Below are positions 1,676 through 32,630 of a stretch of DNA of 32,630 nt, in pieces (within the stretch, counting starts at the first letter, position 1; every line of letters begins with the position of its first letter). Under the pieces are notes generated by a model, which saw only the letters and a program-made list of their open reading frames with translations, had not been told where the DNA came from and made no database searches. The stretch covers positions 1 to 32,630 of the IMG/VR virus record IMGVR_UViG_3300021197_001630; one strand, 5' to 3'. The position numbers were made by a program, and so were the translations under genes. The stretch comes from a virus.

Positions 1676-4600
1676 ATGTCTATAACCTTACGTAATACCA
1701 AAGGCACCCCTCTGTCTCATGCTGAGATGGATGCTAACTTCTCAGTTTTAACCGGTTCTATCGATGCAGGAGATGGACTATCTGGAGGCGGTCCGAAAAG
1801 CGGTTCAATAGAGTTTGCTGTAAATACAACAGTAGCTCGTACAGGTTCCAATACCTTTACTGGACCTCAAAATATACAATCCAGTCTTACAGCTTCTAGT
1901 GCTGCTATTACTACTATATCTGGCTCTTCTGTCACTTATACATCTGGTTCAATAGACAGAATTGATAGCACATCAAGCGGTATTACTACTATAACCGGTA
2001 CTAATCTTACCTATACATCTGGTTCAATAGACAGAATTGATACTACTGCTGCAGGCATTACTACATTAACTGGAACTAATCTAACTTTTACTTCTAGTTC
2101 ACTTTCTCGTTTAGACGTATCCGGAAACGGAGAAGTACAGGGAAATTTAAACGTAGGCGGTACAGTTACTGCTCAAGAGTTCCATACGGAATTTGTATCT
2201 GGTTCAATCATATTTGTGTCCGGTTCAACTAAGTTTGGAGATACATCTAACGATATACATTCTTTTTCAGGATCTTTACAAGTTTCCGGTTCAGGTAATC
2301 ACTTTTTTACTGACGGTAACGTGGGGATTGGTACTTCTAGTCCTGGACAGAAGTTAGAAGTTAATGGCAGTATATTTGCCAATGGCGGGAATATAACAGG
2401 TTCTAATTTTAGAATAGGAGAGTATATCGTTCATAGCGGTGATACTGACACGTTTATTAGATTTCAAACTGACGATATAAGCTTAACTGCCGGTGGAAGT
2501 AATTTATTTAGAGTAGATAATACTGCACCTGTAAGAGAGATTATAGTTAATGAGGCCGGAGCTGCAACAAACTTTAGAGTTGAATCTGATACTGTAACGG
2601 CTGCTTTATTTGTTACCGGCTCTACCGGTAACGTAGGTATTGGTACTACTACTACTGACTCTCTTTTACATCTTTCCGGCTCTTCCAATAATGCTATTGT
2701 CACTCTAGAAAATAATGGTAACGGTAACGTATCCGGTATAGATTTTGTTAGAGAAAGAAGTTCCGGTACTGGAGTTAATGGTGGTTCAATTTTTGTTGAA
2801 TCTAATACTGGACATACCCATTCCTCTATGTATCTGCAGACTCAAACTGCAGGAGCTGAAGCAGGAGTTACTTCTGCGTTAACAGACGATAACGGTGTTA
2901 GAGTTATTTTAGGAGGAGGAAATGGAATAGGGTCCTTTATCGTAGAAAATGGATCAAGCGAAAGTTTAAGAATTAATAAAGACGGTAACGTAGGTATTGG
3001 TACTACTAGTCCAACATCTTACGGTTCAGCTGTAAGAACTTTAGAAATACGAGGGAATACAGGTACAGGTAGCGGATTAGTTAGAGTCTCAAATGCAGAT
3101 AATTCTGTAGGTACCTCGTTATATTCTAGTACTAGTGCAGGTACCTTAAATGTTCAAACTAACCATCCTCTTACTTTCGCTACTAACAACAGCGAACGTA
3201 TGCGCATCGATACAAGTGGTAATATAGGTATTGGTACTAGTAGTCCAAGTCAACTCTTATATGTTTCTGGTTCTGACCAAGGGTTAGTTACTTTGGATTC
3301 CTCTAATGCTGATGGTGCTTATGCAACTTTTAAAACTGCAGGAACTATAAAAGGATATTTAGGTGGAGCCCAAGCTATTGCTAATGCTGGCCAAGATAAT
3401 TTGGCAGTTAGAGCTCAAAATGACTTAGTGTTTGCCACAGGAGGCGGTTCAGAACGTATGCGCATCGACTCAAGCGGTAACGTAGGTATTGGTACTACTA
3501 CTCCTTCTTCCTTATTTGATGTACATGGTAGTAGCAAACTCGGTAATACTAATTCTCATAGGTTAGATATATTAGGACAAACCATAGCTTTATCCGGTTC
3601 TAATACTACTATAGAGCACAAAGCAGCATCAGGTAATTTAAGAATACAAACTACTGGAGGATCTAATAATAAACTTATTCTTTCGTCTTCCGGAGATATA
3701 GAAGTAGAACAATCAGTTACAGTTAAGAATTTAGACACCTCTATACAGTCATCAGGATACCAATCAGGATTTGCCGGTCAAGGCTTTGATATTAATTTTT
3801 CAGGAAAATCTTCGGCTGAGTTTGATGACCTTACTGTAAGAGGCTCTATGAGAGTATTCGAATTAATAATTAATCAAGTTAGAGCTACTAATGGTTCATT
3901 ATTTGTTAGCTCAACCGGTAAAGTTGACTCTGTTGAAGACTTAGGAAGTGGTAACTTTGCTCTTACTTTTGATACCGGTTCAGGTACTGTAGGACATGGA
4001 TTTACTGAAAATGACGTCATTAGAGCCCAGCAAGTTAATAGAAATGCTATTGCCAATGCCGGTCAAACTCAAAGCCTTGATGATAACCTAGTATTTAGGT
4101 CTGACCTAACGGTAACATCAGTTCAAGATTTAAAAATAGTTACTGCATCTTTATCTTCTAGCTCTACTCCACCTTCAGCAAGTTTTGATTTTGTAAGATT
4201 AGGGAATACTTCTAATACTAATCGTCAAGGGAATATTTATCTAACCTCAGACGATAATAAAGCCCCTTTTATAGATATAGTAGACGGAATTACTTCTCAT
4301 TCAGATTTTAATAATTCTGCTACGGAGGGCGGTACTAAAGTTCGTATCGGTAAAATAGACGGAATAAATTCTCCGATTTTTGGGGATTTAACCGGATTCG
4401 GTATGTGGGCGTCTGGATCTGTTTACTTAGAAGGAGGTATAAATGCTACCTCGGGCCTTGTAGCAGGTTGGGCGATAAATACTGGCGTAATTCAAAGTAA
4501 TAATATCTTTATACAGTCTTCTGGTTCAGCCGGTGGAGAACTTATTAAAATAGGGCAGACCGCTGGTATGTCAGGTAATGGTATATTCTTATCAGGATCT

Positions 4601-7600
4601 GGAGATTTCAATTTACAAAGCGATGGTAGTAATTTTATAAGAAAGAGTGGAACAGATATTCAAGTAAGATCTGAAAACTTTATACTTAATACTTCTAAAT
4701 TAAAAATAGATTCTACTGCTGGGGGTAGCGGTAGTATAGCCATGGGAGCTACTCCACCTACTAGCTTTAATTCAGGTACAGGATTTTTCGTAGACGGTTC
4801 TGGTAAGTTTCTATTAGGCAATTCAGGTGGTAGTAAGATAACTTTTGATGGTAGTAATGTTAATGTAGTAGGTTCAATAACTATTAGTAATCCTGGAGAT
4901 ATAGACATCTCTACCGTAAACAACGATTCAGGATTTACTGATGATACTGCTGCTACTGCAGCTAGTGCTTCTGCGGCTACAGTAAGTAGTTCTGAAGCTG
5001 CTATTAGAACCCAAGTTAGACTTACCTCAAATGGTATGGAACTTGCTGATCAAAGTAGTAATATATTAGCTAGTTACGGTACTACTACGACAATAGGTAG
5101 AGATGCTAATAATCAGTCAAGAATTTTTATAGATAGTGATTCAGTTGACTTAATAGTAGATAGTGGAGGAACAGATACCACTCAAGCCTCTTTCGGTGCC
5201 ACTACAGTAGTAGGTGCTACAGGCAGCGAACATATAAGAATATCAGGGTCAGGTTTAGAGATTAAAGATGGCTCAACTACTAGAATTTCAATGAACGGTT
5301 CTGGTATGCAAATAGGTTCAGTAGCTAACGGTATCACTTTAGATGCTAGCGGTAATGCAACTTTTAACGGTGAAATTACGATAAGTTCAGGTTTAGCTAA
5401 TTCTATTAGTGGATCTATTACCGGACAAACGGGTTCTCTTGATACAGCTATAAATAGCGCTCAGGGAACAGCAAATACTGCCACCGGCTCTGCTGCTACT
5501 GCTCAAGCAGCCGCCCTAGCTGCTCAAGGTACGGCAAATGCCGCCACCGGGTCTGCTGCAACGGCACAGTCTGCGATAGATACTATGGAGACTCAAGTAG
5601 TTCTTTCTAGTGCAGGGATGGACTTAAGAAATAATAGTAACGTAAATGTTGCTACTTTTGGAACTACTACCAAGTTTTTCGACGGAGTAGGTCATGCAGC
5701 CGCCAATAGAAAGTTACAACTAAATGCTAGCGGTATTACTGCTTTTGGAGACGATACTACTACTTATGCTGAAGTTACTTCTACAGGTTTAGGAATAGTC
5801 GAAAGCGATGTTAATGTAGCATCTTTTGGCTCTTCAGTAAGGGTAGGTAAAAACGCAGCTGATAAAACAGCTTTAAGGATAGATAGTTCAGGTAACCTAT
5901 CTATAGGTACCTCAGGTACTACTAATTTTTCAGCTGACAGTTCTGGAAACGTTACTATGGCAGGTACAGTTACTGCGACAGCTGGTGCTATAGGCGGCTT
6001 TGGTATTTCAGCTACTACTATATCCTCATCTAATGCTGATTTAATATTAAGAAACAACGGACAGATAACCGGCTCTAATGTTTTATTTGACGATGGAACC
6101 ATAGGTGGGTTCTCTATTACTGGAACTGCTATTTCGTCTTCGAATAATAATTTAATATTAAGGAATAACGGACAGATTACTGGTTCCAATGTTTTATTTG
6201 ACGATGGAACTATTGGAGGTTTTTCTCTTACTGCTACATCTATTTCATCCTCTAATAATAGTCTTATATTAAAAAGCAATGGTCAAATAACTGCTTCTAG
6301 TGCTGATCTTAGTGGAAAAATTACAGCTGAATCTGGAGAAGTAGGTGGTTTTGCTATTACTGCAACCGCTGTTTCGTCATCTAATAATAGCTTAATACTT
6401 AGAAGTAATGGTCAAATAACAGCATCTAGTGCAGATCTTACTGGTAAAATTACGGCAACAAGTGGGGAAGTCGGTGGTTTTGCCATTACCGGTACTGCTA
6501 TTTCATCTTCGAATAATAGTCTTATTTTAAAAAGCAATGGTCAAATAACTGCTTCAAGTGCTGATCTTTCTGGTAAAATTACTGCTACAAGTGGTGAAGT
6601 TGGTGGTTTTGCCATTACAGGAACTGCTGTTTCTTCATCTAATGACCAATTAATACTTAGAAGTAGCGGACAAATAACAGCATCTAACGTAGATCTTTCT
6701 GGTAAAATTACTGCTACAAGTGGTGAAGTTGGTGGCTTTTCAATTACAGGAACTGCTATTTCATCATCTAATAATAATCTTATCTTAAAAAGTAATGGTG
6801 AAATCACTGGTACTAGCGGTACTATTGGAGGATGGACGTTAGGATCCGATAGTTTTACAAACGGTAACGTTAAATTATCTAATGCAGCTGATAATAAAGG
6901 CCTTATAATTACTGCTGCATCAGGACCTAACATACTCCAGGTAGGTGAATTCGATGACGTTACTCCTACTTCTACTGTGTTAAGCTTTCCAGCAACTGTG
7001 GACGAATCAGCTGCTTCTTCAAGTCTATTTGTTAGTAGTTTTCCAAGAACAATTGGCTTTGATGGAACCGGTAACGCAGAAAAAGGAGCAAGATTATTAT
7101 ATGAAATAGATACTGCAATAAATTCAAAAGATACTATTAACATAGTACAGCCAGTATCTTTTGGGTACTTAATGGAAGATGGAAGTATAGCTGGTGTAAC
7201 TAAATTTGCTCACGTTACTGCATCGTTAATTAAAGGTACTGAAGTAGTAGCTCAAACAGCAGTACAAAGAAGTAGTATTTACCCTTCTTCCGCAGTACTC
7301 AACATACAACATTACTATACCGGAAGTAACGTAGGTTCTGGAACTTTTAAACTACAGATAGACTATAGATCGCACTATAATAGAAATTCAGATCCTGCTA
7401 ACTTTAATGAAGTAACGTTAACCGGATACCAAGGTACAAAAGATACAGCTTTAGTTAATATAACAAATAACCAAGCTTTATTCTACCAGGGACCTAATAG
7501 AAAATTTGAATGGACTCCTGGAGGACTCACCTTTAATGTGGGTGAGGTAGATATAGCTAATATTAATACTGAAGGTATTAAGTTAAAAGAATCAGGTTCC

Positions 7601-8986
7601 ATAAGTCTTGATGCCGGTAATATAGGTATCTTTAACGGCGGTATAGATGTAGGTGGAGATAATAGTCACGTATTCATTTCAGAAAATGATTTTGTAGATC
7701 CAGAAGGATATAAGTTCTTTGTAAACTCTGATAATTCAGAGATGATTCTACTAAATAAAGCTCAAGTTGGTACTATCTCAATGATAGTAGATGGAGCTGG
7801 AGGTCAACCTGAATTCGCTATTCGTCGAACTACTTCTAATACTGAAGTATTTAGAATAGACGAAAACGGTAAAGTAGGAATAGGAGGGGTAGATCCTAGT
7901 GAAAAATTACACGTAGATGGTAACGGTCTTCTTACAGGCAAATTAGGGTTAGGTGGAGTTACTCCTACTTCTACTTTAACTGTTAGTAGTGCTACCGGTG
8001 GAGCAGAAAGTTGGGTAGGAGGTATATTAGTAGAAAATACATCTACAACTACAGGAGAACCAGCTATAGCTTTTAGAAATGCAGGTTCCAGTGGAACTGG
8101 GGATAATAGATGGGTGTTAGGTTTAAATCAATCTGCTAATTTTGATATAGCATATGGTGATTCAACAGGTACAGTTTTTACTAATGCTAATACTGCTATT
8201 AGGATAGGCACTAATAAAAACGTAGGTATAGGCGGGGTATTTACAGGTGCTCGATTAGATATAGTACAGTCAGCAGATTCAGCCGGCGGTGGAATAAGAT
8301 TAAGAGAATCAGACGATACTAATGACTATTGGGATATATTTTTAGGTACAGACGATAAACTATTTTTCCATTATACTGGCGGGGGTAACGGAGGTTTTAT
8401 AGATGACGGCGTTACTTCAAATCAAATGAATTTTACTGGACAGCACCGTTCTAATATTTCTTCAACCTACGATAACATAACAGCAATTTCGAGCAGTGAA
8501 AGAATTGGTTTAATAGTCTCTGCTGACGGTACCTATTCCAATATTGACGGAGGTACTGATCCAACTATTAATGACTCTTTACCTAATATTACTCTCTCAA
8601 CTACAGCTAAAGATAAGAAAGTATTCGGAGTAATATCAGATGAAGAAGATCTAACTGATGGTATAAGAACCTACAGTCAAGGCAACTTTGTATCAACTTA
8701 CGAGGTTTCAGGATCTGAATCTGGTAGAACGTTTGTAAACTCTATAGGGGAAGGGGGTATATGGGTATCAAATTACTCTGGATCTCTTGAGAATGGAGAT
8801 TATATTACTACTTCTCCGTTATCCGGTATAGGTATGAAACAAGCTGACGATTTACTACATAACTATACTGTTGCAAAAATAACTCAAGATTGTACTTTTA
8901 ATGATGCAGGTAAATATACAGAAGTTGAATTCTCCGGGAGTACATACCGTAAGCAGTTTGTTGGCTGTACCTATCATTGCGGATAA
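1676..8986 (+). CDS. Giant repeat-rich tail fibre protein (2436 aa)
   Basis: The start MSITLRNTKGTPLSHAEMD is the standard opening of tail-fibre proteins in marine myoviruses (virion attachment end). The body is low in cysteine and rich in Gly, Ser, Thr and Asn. It carries many beta-type repeats: GNVGIGTSSP-like motifs (about residues 214, 319, 437, 515, 601 and degenerate ones after 2060), an alanine-rich ATGSAATAQ stretch likely to be helical, and seven tandem GGF...SSSN...LILxxNGQIT units (residues ~1440-1717). The last ~150 residues (GVISDEEDL, ENGDYITTSPLSG, LLHNYTVAK, ending CTYHCG) look like a fibre carboxy-terminal domain; resemblance to Peptidase_G2-type self-cleaving or chaperone domains is tentative. 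Likely role: host recognition or long side fibre. At 7.3 kb it fills over a fifth of the window. Confidence 0.85.
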   Translation: MSITLRNTKGTPLSHAEMDANFSVLTGSIDAGDGLSGGGPKSGSIEFAVNTTVARTGSNTFTGPQNIQSSLTASSAAITTISGSSVTYTSGSIDRIDSTSSGITTITGTNLTYTSGSIDRIDTTAAGITTLTGTNLTFTSSSLSRLDVSGNGEVQGNLNVGGTVTAQEFHTEFVSGSIIFVSGSTKFGDTSNDIHSFSGSLQVSGSGNHFFTDGNVGIGTSSPGQKLEVNGSIFANGGNITGSNFRIGEYIVHSGDTDTFIRFQTDDISLTAGGSNLFRVDNTAPVREIIVNEAGAATNFRVESDTVTAALFVTGSTGNVGIGTTTTDSLLHLSGSSNNAIVTLENNGNGNVSGIDFVRERSSGTGVNGGSIFVESNTGHTHSSMYLQTQTAGAEAGVTSALTDDNGVRVILGGGNGIGSFIVENGSSESLRINKDGNVGIGTTSPTSYGSAVRTLEIRGNTGTGSGLVRVSNADNSVGTSLYSSTSAGTLNVQTNHPLTFATNNSERMRIDTSGNIGIGTSSPSQLLYVSGSDQGLVTLDSSNADGAYATFKTAGTIKGYLGGAQAIANAGQDNLAVRAQNDLVFATGGGSERMRIDSSGNVGIGTTTPSSLFDVHGSSKLGNTNSHRLDILGQTIALSGSNTTIEHKAASGNLRIQTTGGSNNKLILSSSGDIEVEQSVTVKNLDTSIQSSGYQSGFAGQGFDINFSGKSSAEFDDLTVRGSMRVFELIINQVRATNGSLFVSSTGKVDSVEDLGSGNFALTFDTGSGTVGHGFTENDVIRAQQVNRNAIANAGQTQSLDDNLVFRSDLTVTSVQDLKIVTASLSSSSTPPSASFDFVRLGNTSNTNRQGNIYLTSDDNKAPFIDIVDGITSHSDFNNSATEGGTKVRIGKIDGINSPIFGDLTGFGMWASGSVYLEGGINATSGLVAGWAINTGVIQSNNIFIQSSGSAGGELIKIGQTAGMSGNGIFLSGSGDFNLQSDGSNFIRKSGTDIQVRSENFILNTSKLKIDSTAGGSGSIAMGATPPTSFNSGTGFFVDGSGKFLLGNSGGSKITFDGSNVNVVGSITISNPGDIDISTVNNDSGFTDDTAATAASASAATVSSSEAAIRTQVRLTSNGMELADQSSNILASYGTTTTIGRDANNQSRIFIDSDSVDLIVDSGGTDTTQASFGATTVVGATGSEHIRISGSGLEIKDGSTTRISMNGSGMQIGSVANGITLDASGNATFNGEITISSGLANSISGSITGQTGSLDTAINSAQGTANTATGSAATAQAAALAAQGTANAATGSAATAQSAIDTMETQVVLSSAGMDLRNNSNVNVATFGTTTKFFDGVGHAAANRKLQLNASGITAFGDDTTTYAEVTSTGLGIVESDVNVASFGSSVRVGKNAADKTALRIDSSGNLSIGTSGTTNFSADSSGNVTMAGTVTATAGAIGGFGISATTISSSNADLILRNNGQITGSNVLFDDGTIGGFSITGTAISSSNNNLILRNNGQITGSNVLFDDGTIGGFSLTATSISSSNNSLILKSNGQITASSADLSGKITAESGEVGGFAITATAVSSSNNSLILRSNGQITASSADLTGKITATSGEVGGFAITGTAISSSNNSLILKSNGQITASSADLSGKITATSGEVGGFAITGTAVSSSNDQLILRSSGQITASNVDLSGKITATSGEVGGFSITGTAISSSNNNLILKSNGEITGTSGTIGGWTLGSDSFTNGNVKLSNAADNKGLIITAASGPNILQVGEFDDVTPTSTVLSFPATVDESAASSSLFVSSFPRTIGFDGTGNAEKGARLLYEIDTAINSKDTINIVQPVSFGYLMEDGSIAGVTKFAHVTASLIKGTEVVAQTAVQRSSIYPSSAVLNIQHYYTGSNVGSGTFKLQIDYRSHYNRNSDPANFNEVTLTGYQGTKDTALVNITNNQALFYQGPNRKFEWTPGGLTFNVGEVDIANINTEGIKLKESGSISLDAGNIGIFNGGIDVGGDNSHVFISENDFVDPEGYKFFVNSDNSEMILLNKAQVGTISMIVDGAGGQPEFAIRRTTSNTEVFRIDENGKVGIGGVDPSEKLHVDGNGLLTGKLGLGGVTPTSTLTVSSATGGAESWVGGILVENTSTTTGEPAIAFRNAGSSGTGDNRWVLGLNQSANFDIAYGDSTGTVFTNANTAIRIGTNKNVGIGGVFTGARLDIVQSADSAGGGIRLRESDDTNDYWDIFLGTDDKLFFHYTGGGNGGFIDDGVTSNQMNFTGQHRSNISSTYDNITAISSSERIGLIVSADGTYSNIDGGTDPTINDSLPNITLSTTAKDKKVFGVISDEEDLTDGIRTYSQGNFVSTYEVSGSESGRTFVNSIGEGGIWVSNYSGSLENGDYITTSPLSGIGMKQADDLLHNYTVAKITQDCTFNDAGKYTEVEFSGSTYRKQFVGCTYHCG
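3230..3505 (+). repeat. Duplicated 276 bp fibre block, copy 2
   Basis: Partner of 253-528. Differences include four substitutions clustered where one copy reads gccgcggctata and the other gcccaagctatt. It encodes about residues 519-610 of the giant fibre. Confidence 0.9.
5993..6826 (+). repeat. Seven tandem fibre repeats (111-129 bp units)
   Basis: Seven in-frame units: two of 37 codons, four of 43 and a last one of 32. Each starts GGF or GGFxIT and contains SSSN and LILxxNGQIT. Units 5 and 6 share more than 40 consecutive bases at a 129-base offset (from 6563 and from 6692), so part of the array duplicated recently. Probably a beta-helical shaft whose length can change by unequal recombination. 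Confidence 0.9.
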
Positions 8987-9514: not shown

Positions 9515-11248
9515 ATGGCAGAAACAATTATTTCACCCGGTGTATTTACGAGAGAGAATGATTTATCTTTTGTAGCACCTGCACCCGCCGAAGCCGGAAC
9601 CGCCTTTATAGGTCCAACAGTTAAAGGACCTGTTGAGATCCCAACCGTAGTAACTTCATACGGGCAGTATCAAAGAATCTTTGGTTCTACCTTCGAGTCT
9701 GGATCCACAAAACAAGAATTTTTAACTTCTATTTCCGTCCGTAGTTTCTTCAACCAAGGCGGATCTACTGCATTAATTACAAGAGTAGTAAACGGAAGTT
9801 TTGCAGCAGCTAGCAATACCCATATCTCTTCTTCTGCTAAATCAAGCAGTCAGCCTTTCGAATTAGAAACTCTAGGCAAAGGAGTTATCTATAACAACTC
9901 AACCGGTGCAAGCGATTCAGGTAAGCAAAATGCTGATGGATCTCTAATGACAGGTTCTTTTGATAATTTAAGATGGGAAGTATCTAATGTTAGTAATGCA
10001 AAAGGGACTTTTACTCTCTCAGTAAGAAGAGGTGACGATAATAATAAAGAAAAAGTAGTATTAGAAACTTTCAATAATCTTTCTTTAGATCCTAATTCAG
10101 ATAACTATATCGAAAGTTCTATAGGTAACCAAGTAAAAAGTTTATCTGGCGATTATATATCAACAACTGGTGAATATCCAAATATATCGAATTTTGTAAG
10201 AGTTAAATCAGTTGATTTACCTACATTAAATTACTTAGGTAACGACGGTACTACAGTTCTTACTGATACTGCAGGAGCCAGTTACAGCTCTTCACTACCA
10301 ATAGTAGGATCAGGATCTTTCCACGGTGCTACTGGAGCAATAGATCAATCAGGTTCAGTATACTATAACGGATTTACTAATACAGATAGTCAAGGTTTAG
10401 TAGGAGCTAATTATAACTCAGTTATTACTTTGCTAGAAAATACAGATGACTTTCAATTTAAAGTAATAGCAGCACCTGGTCTAATTTCTGACGTACATTC
10501 AACTCAAGTCAACAACCTTATTTCACTAGCCGAGACTAGAGGAGATTGTATATTCGTATTAGATACAGCAGATTTCGGAGAAGCACCCGCAGCAGTAGTA
10601 GCTAAAGCAGATACATTAAACAGTTCCTATGCAGCTACTTACTACCCATATGTTCAGGTAGGTACTGAGACAGGTAAGAATCAATTCGTACCACCTTCAG
10701 TAGTAGTACCAGGAGTATATGTCGCTAACGATAATAGCTCAGCTCCTTGGTTTGCACCTGCCGGTCTTAATAGAGGTGGTATTCCTGGAGTAATTCAAGC
10801 AGAGAGAAAGGTAAGTAAAGCACAACGTGACTCATTATATGACGGTAACGTTAACCCAATAGCTACTTTCCCAGGTTCAGGTATTGCAATATTTGGTCAG
10901 AAGACATTACAGAAAAGACCTACTGCATTGGATAGAATTAATGTAAGAAGATTATTAATTGAATTAAAGAAATTCTTCGGCGACCAAGCAAGAAACTTAG
11001 TATTTGAACAAAATACAATTAATACAAGAAATAGATTCTTATCAGCTGTTAACCCATACTTAGAATCAGTGGTACAGAGACAAGGATTATTTGCTTACAG
11101 AGTAGTAATGGATGACACTAACAATACTGCAGACGTAATTGACAGAAACCAACTTGTCGGTCAGGTATTTATACAGCCAGCTAAAACAGCTGAGTTTATA
11201 GTACTAGACTTTACTATTGAGCCTACGGGAGCAAGTTTTACAGTATAA
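9515..11248 (+). CDS. gp18: Contractile tail sheath protein (gp18-like)
   Basis: The 577-residue product forms the contractile outer tube of a myovirus tail. The start has the sheath signature: ISPGVFTREND, then a FIGPTVKGPVEIPTVVTSY segment and FFNQGGSTALITRVV near residue 90, as in T4 gp18 and phage FI-type sheaths. The last ~130 residues hold the conserved carboxy domain (INVRRLLIELKKF near residue 477, NTRNRFLSAVNPYLESVVQRQG, then VIDRNQLVGQVFIQPAKTAEFIVLDF). It is shorter than T4 gp18 (659 residues), the middle decoration domain being Ser/Asn-rich and divergent. The tube gene follows immediately, the usual order. The leader ccctaac before the ATG lacks a Shine-Dalgarno. Confidence 0.95.
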   Translation: MAETIISPGVFTRENDLSFVAPAPAEAGTAFIGPTVKGPVEIPTVVTSYGQYQRIFGSTFESGSTKQEFLTSISVRSFFNQGGSTALITRVVNGSFAAASNTHISSSAKSSSQPFELETLGKGVIYNNSTGASDSGKQNADGSLMTGSFDNLRWEVSNVSNAKGTFTLSVRRGDDNNKEKVVLETFNNLSLDPNSDNYIESSIGNQVKSLSGDYISTTGEYPNISNFVRVKSVDLPTLNYLGNDGTTVLTDTAGASYSSSLPIVGSGSFHGATGAIDQSGSVYYNGFTNTDSQGLVGANYNSVITLLENTDDFQFKVIAAPGLISDVHSTQVNNLISLAETRGDCIFVLDTADFGEAPAAVVAKADTLNSSYAATYYPYVQVGTETGKNQFVPPSVVVPGVYVANDNSSAPWFAPAGLNRGGIPGVIQAERKVSKAQRDSLYDGNVNPIATFPGSGIAIFGQKTLQKRPTALDRINVRRLLIELKKFFGDQARNLVFEQNTINTRNRFLSAVNPYLESVVQRQGLFAYRVVMDDTNNTADVIDRNQLVGQVFIQPAKTAEFIVLDFTIEPTGASFTV

Positions 11249-26726: not shown

Positions 26727-28670
26727 ATGAAGTCGTTTCTTAGTATATTCTCTTTAATATTATTATGCTCGTTTAATGTTTTAGCACAAACATCAGGCAA
26801 TGGAGGAAGTACACCGTGGGTAGTACTTACTAACCAATACCAAACATCTCCGTTTAACGATACTACTAAAGTACCGGTTTATTATGATGGAACTAACTAC
26901 AGTGGTAAAGTAACTTCGTTACAATTTAAAATTGATTACGATGGAGTTACTTTCGATAGTTTATTTTCTATTACAAGCAAACTATCAGGAGACTATACCT
27001 TATCTTATAATGAAAATAAAACTAATGATGAGGTACTAATTAGTATAGTATATACAGGAAGTTCAACGACTACAACCTTTCCCGATACATCTATCATAGT
27101 ACTAAATTTTGACCACGTACCTGTCAAGTTACTTTACTCTAATGAACAGAATATAACAGCATTTACTTTTGCCGGATATACAGCAGCTGGTTCAAATGCT
27201 AATGGTACTGATATCTCTATAGGAACCCATTCTCACGGTGGAGCTGTTGATATACCGCATAGAAAATTTAGTGGGAATATACTAGAGTACGGTACTAGTA
27301 AAGGCCTTTCAGGGATGGAATACCAGTTATATAGAAACAACTCTTTAATTACTACTGTATTAGGTGGTAGCGCAACTACTACTAATAGTTCCGGATATTA
27401 CGAAATGGTATATTATGAACACTATTACGGTGCTATAAATAATAGTTCAACTGATTTTGATTTTTTATTTAAATCTGAACCTATAGATAGTGATGGAGGC
27501 ATTTCGACTGCTGATTCATATAAGCTATTACTAGCTGCAAATAATAAGTTACAGCTAAATGCATACCAAAGGCTGTCAGCAGACGTTAACCACTCTCATA
27601 CATTTTCGATTGCTGACTCCTACGTACTGTATAGCTACAATGCAGGAGCCTATTCTAACTGGACCGGTTTCGGAGCCGGAGGTTATAGAGACGTAATGTT
27701 TATAAAACCTGAAGACGTAAAGTATTTAAATGATGATAGTACAACGACTACTTCGGTTGGTGTTGGACCATTAGGTTTTTCGCCTCAAGAAACTAATTGG
27801 ACTTATGACCTAAATGCTTACAACGGTATAACTGATCTTACAGAGAATTTTTACGTAGTAGTAATGGGGGATGTAAATCTTACTTCATTAGGAGGCAATA
27901 GTATTTCACCTAAAATAGTTCCTTCCACTATCGGAAATACAAACAATATCAATACCTCTATCCTTGCCCAGTTACCAGATCAAAACGTTACTACTGGAGA
28001 TGAATTTTTAGTTGATTTAACTTTGTTCACAGACGGAGTAGATGTTCATTCATTCGACTTTGAATTAAAATATGATCCAGAGGTACTAGATTTTATAGAA
28101 GCATCAACACCCTACCTACCTAACGCTTGGCAACTTTACTTTAATACTGATAGCTTAGGTTTTATATCCTACGGTGGTTTAGATGCAAGTACTGGGGACT
28201 ATCCTATAAGAACTCAAGATGCAGAAACTATATTAGAATTTAAATTTAGAGCTAAACAAGTAACCGGAATCGGAGAAACACCTATAGAATTTGGAGATAA
28301 CTACAATACCGGAGATAGAAGAGGTGATGACTTAAAAACTATCGTTTATAATGGCAAAGTCTACTTACATGTTATAAGCCCAGTCTTAGACCCAATAGAC
28401 TATCCTGAAGGGTTTAAATTAGACCAAAACTACCCAAACCCATTTAACCCAGGAACTAAAATAGGATTTACAATAGTTAATCCTCAGATAGTTACTATTG
28501 ATGTTTACACATTAGACGGCAGGTATGTAGATACAATCTTTAATAAATTAGTAGGTACTGGTTACCATGAAACTTATTTCGATGCTACTAATTTGCCTTC
28601 CGGAATTTATTTTTATAAATTAAACACTACTACTGGTAGTATAACCAAAAAAATGACGTTAATAAAATAA
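26727..28670 (+). CDS. Secreted modular protein with T9SS sorting domain
   Basis: 647 residues. Signal peptide at 1-20 (KSFLSIFSLILLCSFNVLAQ). Residues ~45-180 are cohesin-like beta, ~181-230 a Cna-B/CarboxypepD-reg-like repeat (SGNILEYGT, NSSGYYEM). Dockerin-like calcium loops occur at ~253-270 (DSDGGISTADSYKLL) and ~286-303 (DVNHSHTFSIADSYVL), with a partial one at ~381. A second cohesin-like domain spans ~413-548 (FDFELKYDPEVLDFI). Residues 565-647 are a type A T9SS sorting domain: LDQNYPNPFNPGTKIGF, VYTLDGRYVD, FDATNLPSGIYFYKL, KKMTLIK. The product should cross the inner membrane by Sec and the outer membrane by the host T9SS, then be anchored or released at the surface. No catalytic domain seen; adhesion, masking or receptor modification are guesses. 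It lies in a phage operon with codon use like its neighbours, so it is phage-borne. Confidence 0.85.
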   Translation: MKSFLSIFSLILLCSFNVLAQTSGNGGSTPWVVLTNQYQTSPFNDTTKVPVYYDGTNYSGKVTSLQFKIDYDGVTFDSLFSITSKLSGDYTLSYNENKTNDEVLISIVYTGSSTTTTFPDTSIIVLNFDHVPVKLLYSNEQNITAFTFAGYTAAGSNANGTDISIGTHSHGGAVDIPHRKFSGNILEYGTSKGLSGMEYQLYRNNSLITTVLGGSATTTNSSGYYEMVYYEHYYGAINNSSTDFDFLFKSEPIDSDGGISTADSYKLLLAANNKLQLNAYQRLSADVNHSHTFSIADSYVLYSYNAGAYSNWTGFGAGGYRDVMFIKPEDVKYLNDDSTTTTSVGVGPLGFSPQETNWTYDLNAYNGITDLTENFYVVVMGDVNLTSLGGNSISPKIVPSTIGNTNNINTSILAQLPDQNVTTGDEFLVDLTLFTDGVDVHSFDFELKYDPEVLDFIEASTPYLPNAWQLYFNTDSLGFISYGGLDASTGDYPIRTQDAETILEFKFRAKQVTGIGETPIEFGDNYNTGDRRGDDLKTIVYNGKVYLHVISPVLDPIDYPEGFKLDQNYPNPFNPGTKIGFTIVNPQIVTIDVYTLDGRYVDTIFNKLVGTGYHETYFDATNLPSGIYFYKLNTTTGSITKKMTLIK

Positions 28671-28675
28671 AAGCT

Positions 28676-28987
28676 ATGAGCGAACAAGAACAACCACTAA
28701 ACTCAGGTTTCAAGGACCTACTTAATGCTACAATGAGCCGCCGTTGGGCTATAACTTTAACAGTACTTATTACCTTTATGCTACTAGCATTAGGTATACT
28801 TCTTTCTATTAGAACTGAGGCAACCGTTTCCGGGGAGTGGAAAGAGTTACTATTATTAATGCTTGGTGCCTTAATTGGTTCGTACGGTAAAATAATAGAT
28901 TATTGGTTCTCTGATACTGATAAAGATAAAATGCTTGTTCAAAAAATGGATGAAGAAGACGGAGTTTCACTTTCAGACACTATGTAA
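28676..28987 (+). CDS. Holin-like small membrane protein
   Basis: The 103-residue product has a charged amino end followed by two predicted membrane helices (about 24-45 and 56-75, WAITLTVLITFMLLALGILL and LLLLMLGALIGSYG), then GKIIDYWFSDTDKDKM and an acidic tail. Small two-helix proteins with a GxYGKxxDYWF-like junction are common in marine phages and usually called holins. Start five bases after the T9SS-type gene, three bases before the secreted nuclease. No endolysin gene is recognisable beside it. Holin is the best reading, but a generic membrane protein cannot be excluded. Confidence 0.6.
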   Translation: MSEQEQPLNSGFKDLLNATMSRRWAITLTVLITFMLLALGILLSIRTEATVSGEWKELLLLMLGALIGSYGKIIDYWFSDTDKDKMLVQKMDEEDGVSLSDTM

Positions 28988-28990
28988 ATT

Positions 28991-29575
28991 ATGAAAAAAT
29001 TAATTATAATTTTTATATTAATGCTTCCTTCGACCATTTTTGGTCAGGAAGTTAAGATTGTTGAAACTGATTTATTTACAATTGGATATTCCGAACAACT
29101 ACAACAACCAGTTTGGGCTGAATATGTTGTAAAATGTCCTAACGGTACGGCTAGTAGATCTGGAATGGACTTCTATGAAGATAAAGAAATCTTTACTTCG
29201 GACGATGACGACTATAAAGGTAACGTATGGGATAAAGGGCATATGGCTCCTGCAGCAGCTTTTTCTTGCACCAGAGAGATGCTTAGAGAAACTTTTACTT
29301 TTCTTAATTCTGCCTTACAGCACCAAAGTCTTAATAGAGGAGTCTGGAACAGATTAGAAGCTTTTGAAAGAGACTTAGCTAACTTCTATGAGGTAAGCGT
29401 ATACATAGCTGTAATCTTTGACGAAGATTCCGAAGTTTTAACTACTGGTGCAACCGTACCCTCTGGTTTTAGAAAAACTATATATTTTGATGATAATACA
29501 GTTGTGTTTGAATTTCCAAACGAACAAATATCCGGCAAACGTTGGATTGACTTCAAATTAGATAACTTTAACTAA
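28991..29575 (+). CDS. Secreted DNA/RNA non-specific endonuclease (NUC family)
   Basis: 194 residues. A signal peptide ends near residue 19 (KKLIIIFILMLPSTIFGQ), so the mature enzyme is extracytoplasmic. The beta-beta-alpha-metal site is complete: WDKGHMAPAA (81-88, His84 as base; the usual DRGH is DKGH) and FLNSALQHQSLNRGVWNRLE with N106, N115 (metal ligand) and E123. Spacing matches Serratia nuclease (H89, N119, E127). Expected to cut single- and double-stranded DNA and RNA with Mg2+. Shorter than Serratia nuclease (245 mature), close to small NUC members. It lies in the exported-protein block. Possible uses: degrading released or incoming DNA outside the inner membrane, or nucleotide scavenging; the sequence does not decide. 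Confidence 0.9.
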   Translation: MKKLIIIFILMLPSTIFGQEVKIVETDLFTIGYSEQLQQPVWAEYVVKCPNGTASRSGMDFYEDKEIFTSDDDDYKGNVWDKGHMAPAAAFSCTREMLRETFTFLNSALQHQSLNRGVWNRLEAFERDLANFYEVSVYIAVIFDEDSEVLTTGATVPSGFRKTIYFDDNTVVFEFPNEQISGKRWIDFKLDNFN

Positions 29576-29582
29576 TAAAAAA

Positions 29583-29909
29583 ATGAGCGAAGAAAAACAG
29601 GAAGGTTTCCTTTCACAAATTAAAACTCAAATTGTAGCCGGGGTTGGTATTGTACTAGCCGGACTAGGTACTGCTTTTGTAGACGAAATCAAATCCTTTG
29701 TAGGAATCGAAGACGAAGCAGCAATAGAAGCACCAGCTGTTAATGCTGAACAGAACGTTAACGTAGAAGGTCCAACTATTAACCTTACTATACCTCAAGC
29801 AGCTCCTATTCAAACTATAATAAAAGAAGTTAAAGCCGAGCCTGAGACTGTAAAAGTTGAAGAGCCTACTGCCACAGATAGATTACTAAGATACAAAAAG
29901 AAAAACTAA
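29583..29909 (+). CDS. Small membrane-anchored protein, unknown
   Basis: 108 residues: one likely membrane helix near 14-33 (IKTQIVAGVGIVLAGLGTAF), then an acidic, Val/Pro-rich region (VNVEGPTINLTIPQAAPIQ, EVKAEPETVKVEEP) and a basic end (RLLRYKKKN). The layout, an anchor plus an extended periplasmic or cytoplasmic arm, would fit a spanin-like or scaffold role, but no family is recognised. A leader of seven A residues precedes the ATG; its stop overlaps the next ATG by one base (TAATG). Confidence 0.55.
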   Translation: MSEEKQEGFLSQIKTQIVAGVGIVLAGLGTAFVDEIKSFVGIEDEAAIEAPAVNAEQNVNVEGPTINLTIPQAAPIQTIIKEVKAEPETVKVEEPTATDRLLRYKKKN

Positions 29910-30154
29910 TGAAATTACCAAATATACCTTACTACATCGAACACGGCCTGATTGCTTTAGGGATTACTGTTCTAGCCTTTTTAATTCCTAACTTTGCAAT
30001 AGTATCTGCAGGGTTCTTTTTCTACCTTGGTAGAGAAATTAGAGACTTAGAAAAACTACATGACTGGGATATGGAAGGTTTTGATTGGCCTGGAATGTTG
30101 TGGCCAGTTTATGTTACTGTAGCTCTTTGGATTCTAACTTTTATATTTCTATAA
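29909..30154 (+). CDS. Small integral membrane protein, unknown
   Basis: 81 residues with two or three hydrophobic segments: about 12-41 (HGLIALGITVLAFLIPNFAIVSAGFFFYL, possibly a hairpin) and 62-80 (WPVYVTVALWILTFIFL). Between them a charged GREIRDLEKLHDW loop. Translation is coupled by one-base overlap with the gene before, and the stop lies one base from the CsgG-like gene. Similar small proteins with FYxGREIRD-type loops are seen in marine phage genomes; function unknown. A holin or antiholin role is possible given context. Confidence 0.55.
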   Translation: MKLPNIPYYIEHGLIALGITVLAFLIPNFAIVSAGFFFYLGREIRDLEKLHDWDMEGFDWPGMLWPVYVTVALWILTFIFL

Positions 30155-30155
30155 C

Positions 30156-30848
30156 ATGAATAAATTTATACTTTTCTTTACAGGCGTTTTTCTTTTAGTT
30201 ACTGGCTGTTCTTCTTCTGTATTAGTTGAAGATTTTCAAGCAGGATATGAAGAGCAAAAATCAATCTACGACATAGAGTATAATACCGGAGAAAGAACTC
30301 CTATTCAATTAGCTAATCTTTCAGTTACTAAAGAGATAATAGAGCAGTACCCAGAACTTGGAGACAAAAGAGTAGGTTTAGGATTAACTAACCGTATTCT
30401 TGAAAACTTTGAAGAGACTGGTTTCTTTAGATATACAGAAGAGAAAGAAGATATACTAAACCAAATGATAGATAAATGGGAACTATCAGATGCCGGTTTA
30501 GCTACTGATGGTACTGAAATTAATACAGGTACTTTAGTACTTCCTAAGTACTTTGTGTATGCCGAACTTTACGAATTCTCTGTATCAACAGAAGAAGTAG
30601 TAGACAAGTTTAATACTATAACCCGTAATACTACAAGAGTTGGCTTCCAAATTAGACTTGTAAGCGTAGAAAACGGAGAATACATTATAGCATCAGGCTT
30701 AGGAGAATCAACTCAAACCGGCTTAGGATTTTTATCTAGTCCAGAAATGAACTTTAATCAATCCACCGTAGGTATAAGTACTCAAAAGTCTCTTGAAACT
30801 GCTACTGTTACTCTTATACGCCGTGCTCAAAGGAGAGGCTGGCTGTAA
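30156..30848 (+). CDS. CsgG-like outer-membrane lipoprotein
   Basis: 230 residues. Lipoprotein signal with lipobox VTGC (Cys18). The body matches the CsgG/curli-secretion-channel plan: LANLSVTKEIIEQYPELGDKRVG, GLTNRILENFEETGFFRYTEE near 90-110, YVYAEL-like strand (YFVYAELYEFSV, ~149), FQIRLVSVENGEYIIASGLGES (~180-200) and a terminal helix with A..T.IRRAQ. CsgG forms a nonameric pore for curli export; this is shorter than E. coli CsgG (277). CsgG homologues have, to my knowledge, been seen in other marine phages without a known role. It is followed by a putative outer-membrane barrel gene, suggesting an outer-membrane complex. No CsgA/B curli subunit is present. Confidence 0.8.
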   Translation: MNKFILFFTGVFLLVTGCSSSVLVEDFQAGYEEQKSIYDIEYNTGERTPIQLANLSVTKEIIEQYPELGDKRVGLGLTNRILENFEETGFFRYTEEKEDILNQMIDKWELSDAGLATDGTEINTGTLVLPKYFVYAELYEFSVSTEEVVDKFNTITRNTTRVGFQIRLVSVENGEYIIASGLGESTQTGLGFLSSPEMNFNQSTVGISTQKSLETATVTLIRRAQRRGWL

Positions 30849-30853
30849 GAGGA

Positions 30854-31774
30854 ATGAAACGCCTCTTATTTATACTTACCTTATTACCGAGTTTCTGTTT
30901 TTCACAGACTACCCTTAAGTTTAACTATACTGAGGTTTGTAGTGAAGAGCAGAGACAGATGGTCGTAAATATAGATCCTAACTCCAATAGCTACTCTTTT
31001 TTCGGAGAAAATAAATCTTTTACATCTCAAGAAATAGCAGATGGTACACCATATGAATGGTTAAATACAGTTTATAAAAGATGGTCGGAGTATTACCCGT
31101 GTGCTGAGATTAGAAGTTTAGTCGCAGCTTCTACTAAAAGCTCTTCAGAAAGTTCTAAAGTAGATATAAATGCTCCGATAGTCGTAGTGCAATCAGATTT
31201 AGGGTACTTAAACTCTTTCTTTACAACTTCAGCCGGCTTCTCTAATACTAATTTACTAACAAACGAATCTGAGGGGTATACTTTTAACGGTTCTACCTCA
31301 AGAGTCTTTGGTATTGGTTACTATAGAGTTACTCCTTTTGCAAATAATATTAAAGGAATAACTAATACTAATGTTATTCTTTTTGAAAACGACTTTTTGG
31401 GGAGTTTATCAACAGGGTTAACTGTAAATAAAGGAGATTTATTTGCTTTTATTTTTAATGCATATATTTTTGGTAATTTAAACGGCTACGGATTCCAAGA
31501 CAGCTCTGTACTTTTAGGACTTAGTTATCCATTTTTTAAAACAAGAAATATAGATCTAACCGGTCTCCTTTTAACTTCATATACCTACAGAGTTAAAGTA
31601 TTTAAACTAGATTACTGGTTCGAGGATTACGTTTCTTTCTCACCATATATCAATTTGACATACCGCCTTACGCAGACGTTTGGACTTAACCTCTCCTACA
31701 CTAGTACTTTAAGAACAGATATTTATAAGAAAGATCAGTACGGTATATTACTTGGAGGTAGAGTATTTTTCTAA
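30854..31774 (+). CDS. Putative outer-membrane beta-barrel protein
   Basis: 306 residues. Signal peptide ~1-18 (KRLLFILTLLPSFCFSQ). An amino domain (20-90) has two cysteines that could pair, C29 in NYTEVCSEEQ and C83 in YYPCAEIRS. A Ser-rich linker leads to alternating hydrophobic/polar strands (GIGYYRVTPF, FLGSLSTGLTVNKGD, SVLLGLSYPFF, YINLTYRLTQTFGLNLSYTSTL) ending in GRVFF, with the terminal Phe typical of barrel proteins. A good AGAGGA ribosome-binding site lies in the two-gene junction. I recall the NYTExC amino domain next to CsgG-like genes in other marine phages, but cannot verify it. Likely partner of the CsgG-like protein; function unknown. Confidence 0.65.
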   Translation: MKRLLFILTLLPSFCFSQTTLKFNYTEVCSEEQRQMVVNIDPNSNSYSFFGENKSFTSQEIADGTPYEWLNTVYKRWSEYYPCAEIRSLVAASTKSSSESSKVDINAPIVVVQSDLGYLNSFFTTSAGFSNTNLLTNESEGYTFNGSTSRVFGIGYYRVTPFANNIKGITNTNVILFENDFLGSLSTGLTVNKGDLFAFIFNAYIFGNLNGYGFQDSSVLLGLSYPFFKTRNIDLTGLLLTSYTYRVKVFKLDYWFEDYVSFSPYINLTYRLTQTFGLNLSYTSTLRTDIYKKDQYGILLGGRVFF

Positions 31775-32244
31775 TGAAGCTTTTATTTTTTTTACAGGTA
31801 TTTACTGTTTGGGTAGCACCGGCAGAAAATAGTACTCATATACAGAACTTAAGTAATACTTTAGTTCAAAGAACTACTGCTTTAGTCGTAGAAGAGTATT
31901 TACAAGACATTGACGATTTTAGATTAGTTCAAGATAGATTTGAAGCTGATATTATAGTAACTCCGTCTTTTATAGGATATAGAAGACCTAATACTGATAT
32001 AAGCTTTTCAGTACTTCAAGTACAAGAAGAAGAAGTTTTTCTGACTATGAGGATAGAATTTTATTCTGTTAACTATTCTTTTTCTCAATCTTTAATTAGT
32101 CAGGCGTCTTTAGTTAGAAAGGCAGGTTCTAACTTTCTGGATATAGAAGACTCTCAAAACGATTTTGCTGAAAGTTCTGTCTTTAATTTAATAAAGAAAA
32201 CGATTAATACTTGTTTCCAAGACTTCGATTCGTTAATCTTTTAG
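31774..32244 (+). CDS. Exported protein of unknown function
   Basis: 156 residues. Short signal peptide ~1-17 (KLLFFLQVFTVWVAPA). The mature part has an early helix (LSNTLVQRTTALVVEEYLQD), FEADIIVTPSFIGYRRP, alternating strands and a late helix (FAESSVFNLIKKTINTCF). The helix-strand order, FEADIIVTPSF and helical end recall the periplasmic part of CsgG/LpoB-type proteins, but with no lipobox Cys; weak resemblance. Start overlaps the stop of the barrel gene by one base, so it belongs to the same unit. The 3' end overlaps the convergent minus-strand gene by 12 bases. Confidence 0.55.
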   Translation: MKLLFFLQVFTVWVAPAENSTHIQNLSNTLVQRTTALVVEEYLQDIDDFRLVQDRFEADIIVTPSFIGYRRPNTDISFSVLQVQEEEVFLTMRIEFYSVNYSFSQSLISQASLVRKAGSNFLDIEDSQNDFAESSVFNLIKKTINTCFQDFDSLIF

Positions 32245-32630
32245 TATCTCGGTCAAATCAATTAAGTTATAAGTTATTCCTATTCCAACAAAAGGAGTTA
32301 GTCCCTGAGAAGTAAATCCATACCCACCATGTAATCCTAAGCTTACTCTACTTGGAACTTTTCTCAAAAAATCCTTACCAGTTAATTTATTACCTCCTAT
32401 ATAAGTAATCTTTACAAAATCAGTTAACGGTAATACGTCTATTTCATAACCAGCAGATAAAGGTTTTAATTTAGTTGTTACATTAAGATTTACTCTAAAG
32501 TTTTTTATATTAAAAGTTTCTTCGTATGGCTCATTATTAACGTAATCCCACTTAAAAGAACTTATTGCTTGCAGCTCAAAAGCACCACCATTAAATTTTA
32601 CTACTTCATTTATTAGCAAATCGTAACTAT
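32233..32630 (-). CDS. Partial protein with barrel-like C-terminus (5' end outside)
   Basis: The frame is open to the window edge (upstream of a TTG at 32619 it continues SYDL), so the gene starts beyond 32630. The visible ~130 residues are beta-rich with FRVNLNVTTKLKPL, PSRVSLGLHGGYGFTSQGLTPFVGIGITYNLI. The last motif, GxxxGYGxTxxGLxPFVGIGIxYNL, is typical of small phage or prophage proteins in Bacteroidota that carry an amino-terminal membrane anchor, often near lysis genes; I know similar ones as DUF6808. It is the only minus-strand gene, converging on the + strand block. Spanin-like or envelope role is a guess. Confidence 0.6.
   Translation of the reverse strand, partial: SYDLLINEVVKFNGGAFELQAISSFKWDYVNNEPYEETFNIKNFRVNLNVTTKLKPLSAGYEIDVLPLTDFVKITYIGGNKLTGKDFLRKVPSRVSLGLHGGYGFTSQGLTPFVGIGITYNLIDLTEILKD

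Follow-up and report, generated by a model that had tools for sequence, protein, structure and literature searches.

What does a phage build when it encodes a relative of the curli channel protein CsgG beside a candidate outer-membrane barrel? The question is raised by the 3' end of IMG/VR virus record IMGVR_UViG_3300021197_001630 (positions 1 to 32,630, the whole stretch analysed, hereafter the window). The 32,630-base record carries tail and replication genes, the roles outside the module discussed here being assigned by inspection and from the annotation of Flavobacterium phage immuto. An earlier note, made from the DNA letters, had placed three overlapping or adjacent genes at 30156–32244, encoding a CsgG-like lipoprotein, a barrel candidate with a two-cysteine amino domain and a third exported protein, and had proposed a nonameric pore serving secretion of phage-made proteins, nutrient leakage or outer-membrane disruption at lysis. 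The three open reading frames lie exactly there on the plus strand, and we refer to them as G (30156–30848, 230 aa), B (30854–31774, 306 aa) and T (31774–32244, 156 aa). G opens with a hydrophobic leader followed by the lipobox VTGC, and B and T each have a signal-peptide-like start, in keeping with the exported third protein of the note. G and B are 5 bp apart, and B and T share a 1-base stop/start overlap.

Single-sequence searches of Pfam, PHROG and NCBIfam with G, B and T returned nothing useful. The three are real genes: profiles built from other phages, with the window sequence excluded, and run against the 49 window open reading frames ranked each of them first by a wide margin (E = 5.7e-71 for G, 3.9e-29 for B and 1e-7 for T). 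They end a compact plus-strand gene run (26727–32244), directly 3' of the replicative helicase gene, in which neighbours are spaced by 1–7 bp or overlap by 1 base and whose order is C, h, N, S, a protein with two membrane segments, G, B, T. C (26727–28670) is a secreted surface protein with a dockerin-like region, a cohesin and a type IX secretion C-terminal sorting domain; h (28676–28987) is a conserved small membrane protein of 103 aa with one strong hydrophobic segment; N (28991–29575) is an exported DNA/RNA non-specific endonuclease (Pfam Endonuclease_NS, 8.8e-28); and S (29583–29909) has one membrane segment and an acidic, N/Q/P-rich, probably disordered tail. All four were ranked first by the same leave-one-out procedure (E = 7.6e-71, 1.2e-46, 1.4e-73 and 3.4e-6, respectively). 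An 81-aa protein with two membrane segments predicted from hydropathy (29909–30154) completes the run. The three-gene module thus stands as to its members and falls short as to its limits, since the unit starts at 26727 with type IX cargo and takes in, between 26727 and 30154, a nuclease and three small membrane proteins that the note had not included. On the minus strand, a DUF6808 protein (32233–32628; Pfam, 2.6e-8), its 5' end cut by the window, is convergent with T and of uncertain membership; in the closest relatives, L004–L008, a protein of this family follows T on the plus strand, overlapping it in L004 (9253–9948), L005 (4466–5155) and L006 (3562–4275). Elsewhere in the window, positions 1676–8986 hold a highly repetitive, fibre-like open reading frame of 2436 aa, in which GNVGIGTTSP and GGFSITGTAISSSN recur many times in near-identical form.

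Scans of viral contigs with single proteins found no relatives. A two-sequence alignment of G from the window and immuto retrieved 210 from IMG/VR, and the best 80 of these, together with immuto, the window and three metagenome-assembled (MAG) contigs, make up the set of 85 loci examined; the best 80 matches are related phages, and counts over the set are not independent events. B is present in 66 of the 71 loci with at least 1.5 kb of downstream sequence and T in all 62 with at least 5 kb, so that the co-occurrence of the three genes in related phages, proposed by the note as a check, holds. C is found in 52 of 52 well-covered loci, S in 46 of these 52 (66 of 85 overall) and the nuclease N in 28 of the 85. 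The usual arrangement of G and B is an overlap, often of 4 bases, a gap of at most 5 bp, or a single small gene between them. Among cultured phages, only the Flavobacterium phage immuto isolates were found to carry the module. Their gp012–gp019 hold the same set (nuclease, lectin protein, C as gp014 plus gp015, S, G, B and T), and gp017, a hypothetical protein in the annotation, shares 37% identity with window G. In a tree of G, the phage proteins fall into a single clade (support 0.998) whose neighbours are the G proteins of KSB1 and Chitinispirillum, and window G groups within this clade with L004–L008 (support 0.857). A match in Vibrio phages BD1/BD5 (E = 0.03) was discarded as lying inside a lysozyme-domain protein among virion genes. 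Just downstream of T, L053 encodes an exported, conserved 150-aa protein (10114–10566) with homologues in 53 loci.

The AlphaFold model of G (pLDDT 76, from a 44-sequence alignment) found CsgG (4uv3) as its best Foldseek match (E = 5e-8) and superimposes on the CsgG structure with Z 13.1 over 152 residues (rmsd 3.0); PelC comes next at 10.4, ahead of LptE, FlgT and others at about 9. As modelled, G has the alpha/beta fold of CsgG, and the description of a CsgG-like lipoprotein is borne out by these scores and by the lipobox. The profile relation to CsgG is divided. Neither window G nor immuto gp017 matches the Pfam CsgG family (PF03783), whereas cellular G relatives pass its cut-off of 20.8 bits (25.7 for L084, 30.1 for L094), and a G profile aligned with a profile of 18 canonical CsgGs at a probability of 66 (E = 5.6e-5). 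Because a search of PDB sequences with the G profile gave no match, the link to CsgG rests on structure and on the intermediate cellular relatives.

Sharing the fold of the CsgG periplasmic domain and, in the window, its lipoprotein signal does not make G the curli channel. The nonameric 36-strand barrel of CsgG requires two transmembrane hairpins per subunit, which we take to be residues 134–154 and 184–208, and we compared the corresponding segments of G with those of the 18 canonical CsgGs. The first is shorter in G (21–22 vs 27 residues) and more charged (fraction 0.29 vs 0.20); the second has 29 vs 31 residues and a hydrophobic fraction of 0.30 vs 0.46. In the AlphaFold monomer only three long strands (132–149, 153–170 and 176–192) precede a helix and the fourth is missing, and in cellular relatives including L094 and L095 the second hairpin is lost. 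Taken together, hairpin composition, the three-strand model and the loss of the second hairpin make a CsgG-type pore from G unlikely, contrary to the nonameric pore first proposed; we do not put this more strongly because hairpin amphipathicity, scored as hydropathy alternation, gave overlapping ranges for G and CsgG with no clean separation. As the note had said of curli subunits, neither curlin nor CsgF or CsgE was found among the neighbouring genes scanned with Pfam in the window and representative loci, and a separate barrel gene lies next door. Real CsgG is encoded by phages HTVC008M and Melnitz (PMC9004378, PMC7029224), phage CsgG having been published for pelagiphages and Melnitz (PMC7029224, PMC9004378, PMC9599517), where pore functions close to those of the earlier note were already proposed (PMC7029224, PMC9004378, PMC9599517). 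These CsgGF (type VIII secretion) modules resemble the trio in being multi-gene envelope modules of aquatic phages with a CsgG-fold lipoprotein. They contain recognisable CsgG, CsgF, curlin repeats, FecR and a cyclase, however, whereas the trio has no CsgG-model match, CsgF or curlin and comes with a separate barrel and type IX cargo. The trio is thus distinct from published phage CsgG in sequence and partners and probably also in architecture. Even with CsgG as the best fold match of G and with these phages as precedent, we regard a 36-strand nonameric channel of the pelagiphage kind as very improbable here. We found no published description of the trio in the open-access literature, which omits most subscription journals.

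If G does not itself span the membrane, B is the candidate to do so. Its signal peptide is followed by a small amino domain, modelled as strands and short helices and holding the invariant cysteines C29 and C83, then by a linker and a C-terminal barrel. In most relatives the linker is G/N/S/T-rich, and it runs to about 100–460 residues; in the window it is short. The AlphaFold model is of moderate confidence (pLDDT 65, pTM 0.49), with 11 strands, and its barrel best matches KdgM/NanC porins, autotransporter translocators and FapF (Z 13–16), from which we predict a single-chain outer-membrane barrel, in keeping with the two-cysteine barrel protein described before. FapF and the autotransporters likewise place an amino domain and linker before a C-terminal barrel (Z about 13–15), but the likeness of B to them is structural only, at 10% identity, and B has no amyloid subunit in view and adjoins CsgG-fold genes.

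T is, by profile comparison, a second CsgG-like protein. The T family profile matched the G profile with a probability of 98.3 (E = 2.6e-14) when the window sequence was left out, a repetition made because the window had seeded the first profile, and 98.4 when it was included. Window T is a divergent member, matching the T family on its own with a probability of 81 (0.2 for the reversed sequence), and its pairwise match to immuto gp019 is not significant (E = 0.19), so that the family is established by the profile test. These profiles make T a distant paralogue of G that has a CsgG-like domain and lacks a lipobox.

The constant neighbour of the trio, C, carries matches to Pfam Cohesin (3e-11) and Por_Secre_tail (2.1e-8) and to TIGR04183 (1.8e-10) behind a hydrophobic leader. 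With a type A C-terminal sorting domain and a signal peptide, it has the predicted features of type IX cargo. Amongst 41 non-redundant C relatives, 39 have the sorting domain, 34 a cohesin and only 4 a Pfam Dockerin_1 match; 51 of 80 C proteins and 22 of 39 downstream proteins show a dockerin-like motif, vs none of 1686 other open reading frames. C-family proteins downstream of G bear C-type lectin (17 of 26) or LamG (11 of 26) domains. In immuto (L002, 9865–11689), C is split into a dockerin-like gp014 and a gp015 with cohesin and sorting domain, which suggests possible binding between the two halves. The type IX system belongs to Bacteroidota and the FCB group, and the signal on C accordingly fits the Flavobacterium host of immuto. 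Between C and G, six of the closest, marine relatives of the window encode an outer-membrane protein of the PorV/PorQ family (L004, L005, L007, L008, L009 and L059; for example L009, 6188–7042), adjoining the type IX cargo gene; the one member tested, that of L009, scored 103 bits against a curated cut-off of 90. The module resembles known type IX cargo and PorV/PorQ proteins in its sorting domain and in a relative's above-cut-off family match, and differs from them in being phage-encoded and in combining cohesin and dockerin-like parts. A 95-aa open reading frame with a ferredoxin cysteine pattern also lies between C and G in L006 (765–1052) and L008 (7685–7972).

T and G also occur adjacent or nearly so on MAG contigs of KSB1, Chitinispirillum and desulfo-bacteria, with no obvious phage genes nearby. 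A barrel-type gene stands beside several of these pairs, in the order G-B-T in L084 and T-G-barrel in L094 (barrel domain, 1e-6); by inspection, L091, L092 and L095 are similar, and in L087 T/G follow FecR-like and FlgT-like proteins. The neighbourhood of T/G in L093 includes a repeat protein and another protein whose FlgT_N match (4.8e-5) is below threshold. None of the cellular T-G loci examined has C. Searching by phylum with cellular G brought back mostly longer proteins, open frames of about 300–400 aa, which we took as other CsgG paralogues and left out of the trio counts.

The nearest known arrangement is PelBC, which exports exopolysaccharide in Pseudomonas aeruginosa and whose lipoprotein forms a dodecameric ring on the barrel. 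Like PelC, whose lipoprotein ring couples to a barrel protein distinct from it (PMC12141448), G is, on its model, a CsgG-fold lipoprotein paired with a distinct single-chain barrel. Unlike PelBC, the trio has two CsgG-fold proteins, its barrel has about 11–12 strands with a two-cysteine domain and a G/N/S/T linker in place of fused TPR repeats, and it is found in phages, with no exopolysaccharide genes seen. We tentatively favour, at a probability of roughly 0.4, the reading that G, B and T form a PelBC-like outer-membrane complex for export or anchoring of phage-made surface proteins rather than a CsgG pore. It is favoured by the fold of G with PelC as its next-best family, by the barrel gene right after G, by a trio fixed across phage loci with C in all 52 well-covered ones, and by the bacterial T-G pairs, sometimes beside FecR-, FlgT- or repeat-protein genes; display is favoured by the sorting signal on C, the PorV/PorQ proteins of six relatives and the lectin/LamG and dockerin-like proteins. 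Computation shows which genes are present and in what conserved order, how G and B fold, that T is paralogous to G and that C has a secretion signal; the ring, its contact with B, the exported partner, and the timing and purpose of the complex are inferred. Lipid-anchored G and soluble T would assemble into a ring or collar against the outer membrane on its periplasmic side. B would span the membrane, with its two-cysteine domain and flexible linker extending either into the periplasm or, through the barrel, to the outside. The task of such a complex would be to export, gate or anchor surface proteins that the phage makes and displays on the infected cell. C, sent out via the host type IX system, would be the constant one, and the lectin proteins encoded downstream of G in many of the relatives would be others. 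Against this count the moderate confidence of the B model, the absence of C from the cellular loci, and C's own type IX route, for which it would not need B. We are more doubtful of a fuller picture, a surface-display machine in which two CsgG-fold proteins and a tethered barrel, with a PorV-like shuttle in some phages, serve a cohesin/dockerin-type secreted pair that re-coats the cell, one member anchored via the host type IX system and the other bearing a lectin.

Two other roles would use the same parts differently. One is superinfection exclusion or masking of the receptor: the trio together with the surface proteins would repel other phages, and incoming DNA would be degraded in the periplasm by the exported nuclease. 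All module parts are exported or membrane proteins, the nuclease is in the same gene run, the module lies downstream of replication genes in the window and immuto, and the G fold also resembles the ring of the surface-exclusion lipoprotein TraT (Z 7.3); yet that likeness is far below the one to CsgG and within the range of common arrangements, and the nuclease is found in only 28 of 85 loci. We think this role unlikely.

Slightly less probable again, in our view, is lysis, in which G, B and T with S and h would disrupt the outer membrane late in infection as a spanin replacement in Bacteroidota phages. It draws on the small membrane proteins directly upstream of G (S, h and one of 93 aa), on the S protein and the long B linker, which could bridge the envelope, and on the DUF6808 protein that follows T in the closest relatives, whose membrane anchor and coiled coil could make it i-spanin-like. 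A phrog_181 endolysin (E = 1.5e-69 for the representative tested) within the fetched flanks of 45 of the 85 loci also fits this role and counts against the export complex, and an endolysin of any kind is present in 37 of the 52 well-covered loci. The phrog_181 gene is upstream on the opposite strand in 21 loci, downstream on the same strand in 20 and upstream on the same strand in 4, however, and because position and strand vary we regard it as a neighbour of the module and not a fixed member; the window record has none. L071 (4356–5186) shows the gene beside the module as a GH19 plus peptidoglycan-binding endolysin with homologues in 45 loci. The small membrane proteins tested gave no convincing holin or spanin family match: h had no holin match, the 81-aa protein no family match in Pfam, PHROG or NCBIfam, and one coiled-coil protein of relatives weak Rz-like matches (E = 0.004). 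Known o-spanins are small, unlike the folded domain of G at about 210 residues, and the trio's constant companion, a secreted surface protein, has no obvious use in lysis. Type IX cargo adjoining the trio favours secretion or surface display over leakage or disruption.

The trio thus resembles the curli pore protein in fold and is probably not itself that pore. A G/T pair of CsgG fold is common to phages and several bacterial phyla, is mostly missed by current family libraries, and forms a family set apart from the true CsgG proteins of pelagiphages. That a conserved trio and a type IX surface protein travel together in viruses of Bacteroidota-type bacteria suggests that the surface of the infected cell is rebuilt, in a phage group known almost only from metagenomes that devotes about 5 kb to the host outer membrane and surface. 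Through the host type IX system, phages would have a testable route to changing adhesion, superinfection or lysis, all of them poorly understood in Bacteroidota, and Flavobacterium phage immuto, as a cultured carrier, makes the experiments possible.
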